DNA of 64,000 nucleotides from Mesotoga prima MesG1.Ag.4.2 (lineage in GTDB: Bacteria; Thermotogota; Thermotogae; Petrotogales; Kosmotogaceae): contig NC_017934.1 of NCBI RefSeq assembly GCF_000147715.2, positions 2,852,001 to 2,916,000 on the forward strand. The letters are read 5' to 3'. The notes below the pieces were generated by a model that made no database searches, had not been told where the DNA came from, and was given only the letters and a program-made list of their open reading frames with translations. How positions within the stretch are numbered: position 1 is the first letter of the stretch; the number at the start of each line of letters is the position of its first letter. Made by a program: the position numbers and the translations under genes. Shown in pieces: positions 8,902 through 14,102 of this stretch.

Positions 8902-9516
8902 GTGAACGGACCGAGAAGAGTTTCCGAAGAAGAGTACGAGAAAGCTGTGGAGATCCTTACCGAAGCCTTCTTTGAAGATCCCATGATCAAATACGTGTTC
9001 AAGGACAGAGAAAGAAAAGAAATAAGAAGGCTGTACGGCGTAATGACGAAAGCTTACGCTCCATCAAGCGATATCTACTTCGATTCCGAAGAGTCTAGCG
9101 GAGTGATCCAGTGGATTGACTCTGAAAAGGAGCTCGGCGTAATGGCATGGCTCCGAAGTGGGGCAATGAGAATGATCGGTTCGCCCATTAGCTCGCTCTT
9201 TCGTCTGATGAAAACAGGGATGGAGATTTTTAAGACTCAGAAAGAATGCATGAAAGGACACAATCTGCACCTCATCTTGCTGGCCGTTCTACCTCGAAAA
9301 CAGGGAATGGGAATAGGAAAGAAGCTGATGAACCTCTTTATTCAGGAAGCAGACTCCAGAGGGCTCCCCTGTTATCTGGAAACCCAGAATCCTTCAAATC
9401 TGCGCTTCTACGAATCCTTTGGATTCTCAGTCGTAAAGGAAATCGAAATCTCGCTCGAGCTGAGATCATGGAGCATGGTAAGGCCGATTCCGCTTCAAGA
9501 GCACGAGAACCGCTGA
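8902..9516 (+). CDS. GNAT-family N-acetyltransferase
   Basis: A 204-residue protein with a GTG start at 8902 and GAGGTGA upstream. The acetyl-CoA site is visible as LAVLPRKQGMGIGKKLM (the Q/RxxGxG/A motif) near residue 130, and FYESFGFSVVKE is the usual motif B end. The N-terminal part (AVEILTEAFFEDPMIKYVF) is typical of the GNAT group with unknown small-molecule or protein acceptors. The substrate is not deducible. Confidence 0.85.
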   Translation: MNGPRRVSEEEYEKAVEILTEAFFEDPMIKYVFKDRERKEIRRLYGVMTKAYAPSSDIYFDSEESSGVIQWIDSEKELGVMAWLRSGAMRMIGSPISSLFRLMKTGMEIFKTQKECMKGHNLHLILLAVLPRKQGMGIGKKLMNLFIQEADSRGLPCYLETQNPSNLRFYESFGFSVVKEIEISLELRSWSMVRPIPLQEHENR

Positions 9517-9624
9517 TCTATGGGAAGAGCCGTCCTTGGTCCTTCGTCCAAAACCATGAACCCGTCCTTCGGAAAGACTGGTTCTTCCAACGCTACGCGT
9601 CCAGGTTGTTCGTTCTTGGAACAG

Positions 9625-9645
9625 ATCCCGGATCAAGTCCGGGAT
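9625..9645. repeat. REP-like hairpin, copy 1
   Basis: ATCCCGGA, loop TCAAG, TCCGGGAT, then GAC. It has the same 8-5-8 architecture as the copies at 9999-10019 and 28540-28560, with paired base changes in the arms. Confidence 0.85.
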
Positions 9646-9723
9646 GACCCTGAACAGAGGCATTTCAGGGCAGGCTCAGTGGGATGACAACTGATGTTTA
9701 TTGCGAAAGGGCTAGATTCCGTC

Positions 9724-9749
9724 ATTCCGACAAAGCTCCTGGTCGGAAT
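9724..9749. repeat. REP-like hairpin variant with a longer loop
   Basis: ATTCCGAC (9724-9731) pairs with GTCGGAAT (9742-9749) around a 10-nt loop, preceded by GTC. It is probably a divergent member of the same hairpin family. Confidence 0.6.
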
Positions 9750-9774
9750 CTCGATGCTACTGCTTCATGACTTC

Positions 9775-9804
9775 AACCAAGAACGAAGAAAAGATCCTTG
9801 CTCT
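9775..9804 (+). repeat. Direct repeat, copy A
   Basis: AACCAAGAACGAAGAA followed by AAGATCCTTGCT. The first 16 bases are identical to the copy at 10187-10202, and the following bases match with two or three differences. Confidence 0.7.
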
Positions 9805-9870
9805 GGAAGAACAGGCTCTTTTCGTAGAACGGCAAGCCTTTGACCGGCAACTGCCTTTTGGTGCAACTTA

Positions 9871-9902
9871 CAACTCACATCTTGGAACATGCAACTGTTC
9901 TT
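9871..9902 (+). repeat. Dispersed repeat shared with 28301-28332
   Basis: This segment contains ATCTTGGAAC and CAACTGTTCT at the same spacing as the segment at 28301-28332, about 18 kb away in a similar gene-free spacer. Confidence 0.5.
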
Positions 9903-9998
9903 TTCGGCGAACGGATAACCATTCAACAGTAAACCAGTCCCTTTGATCTTTCCTAACACCAACCCGCTACCCCCAACCACGGTTTCCCGAAAGCCCAG

Positions 9999-10019
9999 AT
10001 CCCGAAACAAGTTCGGGAT
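9999..10019. repeat. REP-like hairpin, copy 2
   Basis: ATCCCGAA, loop ACAAG, TTCGGGAT, then GAC. Relative to copy 1 a G:C pair is replaced by A:T in both arms, so the stem is conserved although the bases differ. Confidence 0.85.
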
Positions 10020-10143
10020 GACAGAGTGAGGGGCTTCCACAAACCGCTCCGGGACAACTTTCTCAGTTGCTTTGAAACCCTGAATTGATTGCCGGTTCTC
10101 TTCGCGAGACCCCATACCCTGTAATCGATACCCTGCCCTTCGC

Positions 10144-10166
10144 GTCATGAACTTGTTTCAGCATCT
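10144..10166. repeat. Degenerate REP-like element in the reverse orientation
   Basis: GTCAT then GAACTTG and TTCAGCATCT matches the reverse complement of the copy at 28540-28560 with 4 bases missing from one arm and a change in the loop. It looks like a decayed copy. Confidence 0.55.
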
Positions 10167-10186
10167 AGCTCCTGGTTTTTGACCTT

Positions 10187-10215
10187 AACCAAGAACGAAG
10201 AACAGATCCTCGCTT
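10187..10215 (+). repeat. Direct repeat, copy B
   Basis: AACCAAGAACGAAGAA at 10187-10202 followed by CAGATCCTCGCT, the second copy of the repeat at 9775-9804. Confidence 0.7.
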
Positions 10216-10255
10216 AACCTCAGTTTGCTCCCTCTTTTTCTTTGGTTTTTGCCTC

Positions 10256-10355
10256 CTGGTGCGTAAGCGCCAGCATCACTTCCCCGGATGCCCTTCCGGG
10301 CATCACTTCCTCGCGCCAGCGAGCCTCACTTCCTGCCGGAGGCAGCATCACTTCT
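10256..10355. repeat. Tandem array of four different hairpins each followed by GCATCACTTCC
   Basis: Four units follow one another with no spacer. Their stems differ: CTGGTGC/GCGCCAG (10256-10273), GATGCCC/GGGCATC (10287-10304), TCGC/GCGA (10311-10322) and TGCC/GGCA (10334-10344). Each is followed by nearly the same tail (CATCACTTCC, CATCACTTCC, GCCTCACTTCC, GCATCACTTCT). On the - strand this reads as GGAAGTGATGC plus a variable hairpin. It lies 45 bp after the stop of the - strand transglutaminase-like gene. Confidence 0.8.
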
Positions 10356-10399
10356 GATCTTGATGCCAACAACCCCCACTGGCCCCGCGAACCTCGGCT

Positions 10400-12530: not shown

Positions 12531-14102
12531 ATGTTTCTTAGACTGAAGCACTTCAAAAACAAGGACGGTTCCACCAGGAGTTACCTGCAGCTCGTAGAGA
12601 ATATACGAGTGGGGAATAAGACTAGACAGAAAGTTCTGGTTAATCTGGGGAGAGTAGATGATCTTCAGAACAGTGGCCAGATAGATAGGCTTATTGAAAG
12701 CCTGAGGAACTTCTCGACGAAAGAATGGATTAGAAAAGAAGCCCTTAATGTGAATCAAACCTATCTGTGGGGACCTGTAATTATCTTCGAGCAGTTATGG
12801 AAGGAACTGGGTATCGAAAGAGTATTGAGGAGACTTCTGGGAGATACGGATGCAGTTAGCGATTACGTTGAGGCTATATTCGCGATGGTACTTAACAGAC
12901 TTGTCGAACCGAGATCGAAGAGGGGAGTAGACAGGTGGGTAAGCAAGGTTTACAGACCTGAGTTCGAACAACTGAGTCTTCAGCATTACTACCGTGGACT
13001 GGATTATCTCGAGAAGTTCAAGGAAGAAGTGGAGGAAGAGCTATTCAGTAATGTGAAGACTCTCTTCAACTTGAATCTCGATCTAGTATTCTGGGACACA
13101 ACGAGCACGTACTTCCAGGGAGAAGGACCCGAACTTTCAATGTATGGTCGTTCCAAGGATCACAGGTCTGATTGCAAGCAAGTGATGATAGGGGTACTAA
13201 TGACGAAGGATGGTTTCCCCGTTGCTCACCAAATCTTTCCCGGAAACACGGCAGACATAGATACCTTCAGGATAGCTCTTGAGGATATACGAAGGAGATT
13301 CAACATAGACAGGGTTATAGTGGTAGCCGATAGAGGAATGATAAGCAACGGACTCATTGAGGAGATAGATAAGGCCGGGCTTTCATACATATTCGGAGTG
13401 AAGATGAGAAGAAGCAAGAGAGTTGAAGCGGTATTGAATCAGCCCGGTGATTACGAAGAAGTGGAAGAGAATCTGAAGGTAAAGGAAGTTCTGCATGAGG
13501 GGGAGAGATACGTAATCTGTTTCAATCCATTTCAGGCAGAAAGAGACAGAATCAAGAGAGAAGAGATAGTGAAGAACCTTACGAAGAAACTTAAACAGGG
13601 GCCAAAGAGTCTTGTAGGAAACAGAGGATACAGAAGATATCTGAGTATGCAGAAAACAGATGTGAAGATAGACCAGGAAAAGATGGCCTCGGAAATCAAA
13701 TATGATGGCAAATACGTTCTAAGAACGAACACAAAACTAACCAATAGAGAGGTTGCTCAATCATACAAGCTACTGTGGAAAGTAGAGAGGGCCTTCAGGG
13801 AACTGAAGAGCGGACTCGATCTTCGCCCCATATACCATTACACAGATACGAGGGTGAAGGGACACATAATGATCTGTTTCCTTGCACTAGTAATGGAGAC
13901 TGCCTTATGCAGAAAGCTGAAAGAGATTGGAAGTACTTTCTCTTACGCAGAAATACTTGAAGACTTGAAAGAGATAAGAGCAGTTGAGATAACGGTAGAA
14001 AACAAACGCTTTCTTGCAAGGACTGAAACGATGGGCAATGCTTACGACGCTTTCAAAGCACTCAAGATAAGACCGCCGGATCTACTCAAAGAGATTGCAT
14101 AA
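12531..14102 (+). CDS. IS1634/IS4-type DDE transposase
   Basis: A 523-residue transposase. The N-terminus (MFLRLKHFKNKDGSTRSYLQLVENIRVGNKTRQKVL) is typical of IS1634-like enzymes. The DDE acid residues can be placed in FWDTTSTYFQG (first Asp), VIVVADRGMIS (second Asp) and the VERAFRELKSGLDLRPIYHYTDTRVKGH block, which has the R-x(n)-E-x(n)-K YREK-type signature with the catalytic Glu. It is intact and carried inside 17-bp inverted repeats. No ribosome binding site fits the ATG. Confidence 0.93.
   Translation: MFLRLKHFKNKDGSTRSYLQLVENIRVGNKTRQKVLVNLGRVDDLQNSGQIDRLIESLRNFSTKEWIRKEALNVNQTYLWGPVIIFEQLWKELGIERVLRRLLGDTDAVSDYVEAIFAMVLNRLVEPRSKRGVDRWVSKVYRPEFEQLSLQHYYRGLDYLEKFKEEVEEELFSNVKTLFNLNLDLVFWDTTSTYFQGEGPELSMYGRSKDHRSDCKQVMIGVLMTKDGFPVAHQIFPGNTADIDTFRIALEDIRRRFNIDRVIVVADRGMISNGLIEEIDKAGLSYIFGVKMRRSKRVEAVLNQPGDYEEVEENLKVKEVLHEGERYVICFNPFQAERDRIKREEIVKNLTKKLKQGPKSLVGNRGYRRYLSMQKTDVKIDQEKMASEIKYDGKYVLRTNTKLTNREVAQSYKLLWKVERAFRELKSGLDLRPIYHYTDTRVKGHIMICFLALVMETALCRKLKEIGSTFSYAEILEDLKEIRAVEITVENKRFLARTETMGNAYDAFKALKIRPPDLLKEIA

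Follow-up and report, generated by a model that had tools for sequence, protein, structure and literature searches.

A stretch of 64,000 nucleotides of the Mesotoga prima MesG1.Ag.4.2 chromosome (NC_017934.1, positions 2,852,001 to 2,916,000; hereafter the window) carries, at 10257-10355 on the + strand, four hairpins, each followed by a GC[AC]TCACTTC[CT] tail. The pattern is real: hairpins with different stems, joined by the same short tail, are scattered through one Mesotoga clade. They are modular hairpin-tail units which disperse as cassettes, are gained and lost unit by unit, and are under strong constraint in their stems, loop type and tails. With a probability of roughly 0.55, we consider the array in the window to be a copy of a clade-specific, non-autonomous, REP/BIME-like dispersed repeat which is constrained to form hairpins in a single strand, spreads as a cassette and is remodelled unit by unit.

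Structure of the array

The features of the array and its surroundings are as follows (window coordinates).

9480-10216 (no strand assigned): mosaic of other dispersed repeat words, the host environment of the cassette
10217-10256 (+): cassette leader, rich in pyrimidines (..TTTGCTCCCTCTTTTTCTTTGGTTTTTGCCTCC), whose edge at 10217 recurs in most matching cassettes
10257-10283 (+): unit 1, hairpin 1 and tail 1
10257-10272 (+): hairpin 1, TGGTGC-GTAA-GCGCCA, GNNA tetraloop, one T.G pair
10273-10283 (+): tail 1, GCATCACTTCC
10284-10310 (+): unit 2, hairpin 2 and tail 2
10284-10299 (+): hairpin 2, CCGGA-TGCCCT-TCCGG, class A-YGNYYY-T
10300-10310 (+): tail 2, GCATCACTTCC
10311-10333 (+): unit 3, hairpin 3 and tail 3
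10311-10322 (+): hairpin 3, TCGC-GCCA-GCGA, GNNA tetraloop, C-G closure
10323-10333 (+): tail 3, GCCTCACTTCC
10334-10355 (+): unit 4, hairpin 4 and terminal tail
10334-10344 (+): hairpin 4, TGCC-GGA-GGCA, GNA triloop, C-G closure
10345-10355 (+): terminal tail, GCATCACTTCT, with a final T instead of C, as is typical of the last unit in arrays
10356-10377 (+): trailer of the cassette, GATCTTGATGCCAACAACCCCC, common to other cassette copies

An earlier note on this DNA had described four hairpins with a shared tail, which is confirmed; its description of the stems as perfect palindromes holds for three of them, hairpin 1 having a single T.G pair. In other copies the left arm of hairpin 1 is TGGCGC or TGGCAC, and at locus L244 the stem is compensated (TGGTGC/GCACCA). 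Hairpin 2 has an alternative fold, GATGCCC-TTCC-GGGCATC, which borrows part of the tail, and its loop positions differ among otherwise near-identical cassettes.

The 100-nt + strand of the array yields exactly four hairpins on folding, and its fold beats 200/200 dinucleotide shuffles, whether computed as DNA (z -3.5) or RNA (z -3.0). As RNA, the - strand shows no advantage over its shuffles (z -0.85, 41/200). Read from the sequence, the hairpins lack the T-run of an intrinsic terminator, being followed by GCMTCACTTCC on the + strand and by GGAAG or GGAGGCAAAAACC on the - strand. No Rfam family matched within the window at the gathering score.

Several words of the mosaic upstream also form hairpins, with stems that differ, e.g. 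CAGATCCCGAAACAAGTTCGGGATGACA and GTCATTCCGACAAAGCTCCTGGTCGGAATCT, and some hairpin words in this intergenic region have compensated stems (GTCATCC..GGGATCT type and GTCATTCCGAC..GTCGGAATCT type). Near the array, a 523-aa ORF (12531-14102, + strand) has the look of an IS-type transposase, its translation having been judged by eye.

Abundance and distribution

The possibility, raised in the earlier note, that the linker occurs nowhere else was dispelled by a genome-wide search: the 11-nt tail has 121 exact copies in the M. prima genome against 2 for a reversed-pattern control. The genome's second contig, of 1,724 bp, reads as N and was left aside. A second tail class, GC[AC]TTGCG[ACT]C[CT], is present at 92 places (control, 1). 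Among ten Mesotoga genomes, seven contain 15-186 tails and three contain 0-3. Tandem pairs were sought in 103 Thermotogota genomes: the host has 58, five other Mesotoga genomes have 7-95 each, an incomplete Mesotoga genome has 4, and the rest have 0 or 1. Array copies are related to each other, and these counts do not represent independent events. Two sequence collections were also scanned with the tandem pattern. Among the matches listed, most are without matching stems, while genuine arrays were found in Mesotoga, on a single Kosmotogaceae contig and at some further loci (L235, L237, L244, L258); the named records outside Mesotoga and Kosmotogaceae among these matches contain no matching stems of at least 4 bp.

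Within arrays the modules lie head to tail in one orientation, mostly 2-5 per array. The first hairpin is preceded by ..CTCC or ..TTCC, and the last tail typically ends in ..CTTCT.

Stem lexicon, loops and pairing

The host and its relatives yielded 468 unit matches with 188 distinct inserts, the stems being drawn from a limited lexicon and recurring between loci. The earlier note was right to see inserts that vary yet remain self-complementary, set between copies of one constant tail. Three designs were recognized: GNA triloops on stems of 3-4 bp (TGC, TGCC, CGAC, TGGC, TCGC, CCGC, CACC, CGCT, CGCC); GNNA tetraloops (TCGC-GCCA-GCGA, TGGCGC-GTAA-GCGCCA); and NNNNA-YGNYYY-TNNNN, with the stems CCGG, TGGG, GCCG, ACTG, CGGG and GGCG. 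Among distinct units, 26 of the 32 triloops are GNA and 24 of the 32 have C-G closure, while GNNA accounts for 20/26 tetraloops.

The stems covary, contrary to the second refuting condition of the earlier note. Within a length class 84-91% of arm positions are paired, against 50-64% once arms are swapped between distinct units (z = 7.9, 14.7 and 6.4 for the 11-, 16- and 17-nt classes); the 9- and 12-nt classes are uninformative in this comparison, because each has nearly one stem.

GNA or GNNA loops with G-C pairs in the stem are the rule for extraordinarily stable single-stranded DNA minihairpins (PMC4686876). Most triloops and tetraloops follow this rule, and the six-base-loop class (A-YGNYYY-T) lies outside it. 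GCCA, the commonest tetraloop among the 12-mers, conforms to the DNA rule but falls outside the GNRA rule of RNA; GCTA, GGCA and GTCA are likewise not GNRA.

Three further ideas about the units were discarded. The polarity of stem mismatches was tried as a test of RNA or strand, with 29 G.T against 21 A.C, an asymmetry that is not significant (p = 0.32). Pairing between loop and tail (loop GATG with tail CATC) showed no covariation; ATG loops are followed by GCCTT 21 times and ACG loops by GCATC 13 times. The 3' end of 16S rRNA is GGATCACCTCC, and the tail as its mimic proved a resemblance only, the second tail class breaking the match.

Cassette dispersal and unit turnover

The array in the window is part of a cassette of ~160 bp (10217-10377). 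Eight other places carry matching cassettes, with identities of ~92-97% over roughly 147-161 bp (in one case, 89% over 196 bp); further matches are shorter or weaker. In the nine aligned cassettes the tails are changed at 3/396 positions, whereas the outer leader and trailer vary, as does hairpin 2 in its loop. Two of the eight matches sit within a 76-kb duplicate. At about 1822259-1846501 and 1898562-1922804 of G000:C1, arrays repeat at a constant spacing of 76,303 bp, pointing to a direct duplication of large size or to an effect of the assembly.

Downstream of the transglutaminase-like gene the units run 1-2-3-4 in the window and 1-2-3'-4 in genome G003, while G009 has units 1-3-4 together with a second array; G002, G007 and G008 have no such array at this place. 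These arrangements show that, between species, the array changes by entire units. Since the hairpin-plus-tail module is gained and lost, the word cassette in the earlier note's suggestion of a recombination cassette is fair, if taken to mean a cassette that is dispersed.

Ten copies of a related composite with hairpin units lie inside CRISPR arrays (G000:C1 1713100-1714700 and 1736900-1739700; L148, L149) whose repeat is GTTTCCATACCACTATGGTTCTTACGCAAC. The composites are flanked by truncated CRISPR repeats sharing 16 bp (CATACCACTATGGTTC) on both sides, and in genome G008 a similar right-hand junction is present next to a gene (L076). Judged by these junctions, this looks like insertion with target duplication, later amplified; alternatively, a single old insertion may have been multiplied as CRISPR repeats recombined with each other.

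Genomic context and orientation

Genes were placed with a simple gene caller, and the contexts of 41 informative arrays were tallied by hand, single cases being corrected. Fourteen arrays lie between divergent genes and 7 between convergent genes; both genes run in the direction of the array in 7 cases and against it in 13. The tail-sense strand is entered from the upstream gene in 14/41, and no consistent position relative to transcription was found among the 41. One array apparently inside an ORF, at 1822210, was an artefact of an over-extended start codon. With 14/41 arrays between divergent genes there is no fixed orientation to genes, and a gene-specific 3' UTR is therefore unlikely. The suggestion that the array belongs to the 3' UTR of the transglutaminase-like gene thus fares poorly: the family is genome-wide, and the strand transcribed from this gene does not fold better than shuffles as RNA. 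The units may, however, be protein-binding hairpins, another suggestion of the earlier note.

M. prima arrays of at least 2 units are mostly on the - strand below 1.3 Mb (14 vs 6) and mostly on the + strand above it (30 vs 5). Neither GC skew nor gene strand switches at 1.3 Mb, and there is no match to a clear replichore boundary. A replication-strand bias was consequently rejected, the change in array orientation occurring without a switch in GC skew or gene strand; local duplication may lie behind this chromosome-wide pattern.

Origin and maintenance of the arrays

We infer that the selected form is the folded single strand, and lean towards a fold that acts as single-stranded DNA rather than RNA, since the loops are of the kind that the DNA rule describes and the orientation to genes is not fixed. 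The constraint would fall on a folded single strand, probably mostly the single-stranded DNA of the lagging strand, of repair or of a transcription bubble, in which GNA/GNNA minihairpins with G-C closure would be exceptionally stable. Between hairpins, the constant tail could serve an enzyme or the replication machinery as a fixed place to dock, nick or slip. Dispersion would then result from the copying of cassettes to new places, and unit turnover from slippage between the 11-bp tails; for unit loss, plain slippage between tails may be explanation enough. A more specific proposal envisages a non-Y1 single-stranded DNA system in Mesotoga for which stable GNA/GNNA minihairpins and the constant tail together form the recognition signal, and which adds, removes and disperses single modules, one tail serving many interchangeable stems; it is speculative and rather improbable.

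The units may instead work as RNA, the transcribed tail-sense strand forming a string of hairpins with single-stranded tails that serves as an RNA-protein docking array, an RNA-stability element or a sponge. Triloop and tetraloop hairpins with constant linkers do resemble repeated-hairpin regulatory RNAs, many G.T pairs fall in hairpin 1, and tail-sense RNA folds more specifically than its complement in 27/33 arrays and also in the window array (z -3.0 vs -0.85); DNA folding shows no strand preference across arrays. Yet the variable orientation to genes (the upstream gene reading into the tail-sense strand in 14/41, divergent genes in 14/41), the lack of an Rfam match in the window, the GNNA loops that go beyond GNRA and the non-significant excess of G.T over A.C all speak against an RNA element, which we consider a possible but doubtful reading. 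It also seems unlikely that the arrays are a functionless product of slippage, with stems and tails kept by template-switch palindrome correction, slippage or gene conversion and no dedicated enzyme. Direct 11-bp tails flanking hairpins are classical slippage substrates, exact loss or gain of units is observed, and the array is embedded in a mosaic of many other repeat words; but GNA/GNNA is kept, with a varying middle base, across at least 8 different stems, and the tails are constant across different hairpins. Palindrome correction alone is insufficient, because it leaves the constraint on loop and tail unexplained.

Two known kinds of mobile element were considered as well. A REP/RAYT (TnpA-REP) system would suit intergenic, palindromic, high-copy, genus-restricted repeats, but is very improbable here: the M. 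prima genome has zero matches to Y1_Tnp (PF01797), and such genes, present in 5/10 Mesotoga genomes and in controls, do not track array number. Moreover, no GTAG-type tetranucleotide is conserved on the 5' side, and what is constant lies 3' and is 11 nt long; stems are unlike between units, and the arrays are direct rather than inverted repeats. Group II introns are known to insert beside DNA hairpins, and might have used the units as homing targets or left them as by-products. The M. prima genome has 21 RVT_1 matches, and about half of these loci have a hairpin array no more than 2.5 kb away; at RVT_1 loci (e.g. L152, L132, L153, L148, L128, L129) group-II-D1D4 and domain V RNA parts were confirmed, and one intron class directly follows a different hairpin word, ..CCCGAACTTGTTTCGGGATCTG. 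Against this, genome G004 has 65 tails and 0 RVT_1 whereas G007 has 1 tail and 18 RVT_1, and the introns inspected lie in neighbouring mosaic words rather than at array units, so that we give this origin almost no credence. Spread driven by reverse transcriptase was likewise rejected, RVT_1 copy numbers not tracking tail numbers.

Comparison with known repeat systems

In the way they work, the Mesotoga units most resemble REP/BIME-type repeats. With REP, BIME and REPIN elements and their TnpA-REP (RAYT) proteins (PMC8266576, PMC3116915) they have in common that they are short extragenic palindromes in high copy number, clustered and likely active as folded single-stranded DNA. They differ in the constant 11-nt 3' tail, the variable stems and the direct, head-to-tail arrays. 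A textbook REP has a stem conserved within its family, and the opinion of the earlier note that these are not ordinary REP elements is upheld by stems that vary between units. As no GTAG-like tetranucleotide lies 5' of the stem, inverted REP pairs are absent, the units of one array sharing their orientation, and M. prima has no TnpA-REP gene, we do not file the units as REP.

Like CRISPR, the arrays alternate a constant short repeat with different inserts, but the constant part is of 11 nt, the inserts are palindromic and come from a small lexicon shared between loci, and there are dozens of loci. A long conserved repeat with unique, non-repetitive spacers was not found, in agreement with the earlier view that this is not a CRISPR. 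No gene cassettes lie between the units, as they would between the attC hairpin recombination sites of an integron. Elhai and colleagues reportedly described in 2008 small dispersed repeats of cyanobacteria, very small, able to fold and situated in mosaic intergenic regions; that work is not known to describe a constant-tail array with the GNA/GNNA loop rule.

The LIMP/HyLIMP elements have conserved loops, compensated stem changes and changes in unit number (PMC4524435). They and the repetitive hairpin elements of sponges (PMC2800124) are, like the Mesotoga units, dispersed intergenic hairpins. The organelle repeats are single mitochondrial hairpins built of internal repeats, whereas in the Mesotoga chromosome different hairpins follow one another in strings, each with the same tail outside it. 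The RepRanger survey lists M. prima with 1,814 and 824 elements and remarks that Thermotogota motifs are unlike those of other taxa (PMC12306157); these are bulk counts, and the passages concerned do not describe the tail, the lexicon or the arrays. No description of the arrays was found in the literature searched, and hairpin arrays with a constant tail appear to be undescribed.

A rich genome without a Y1 transposase raises the question of what moves such repeats, and as tail numbers range from 0 to 186 among the species of a single genus, their gain and loss are traceable. Known bacterial palindromic repeats have one stem per family, whereas those of Mesotoga combine a constant tail and a loop rule with interchangeable stems. 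Such stems separate recognition of structure from recognition of sequence, and the requirements for a hairpin repeat to persist become testable.
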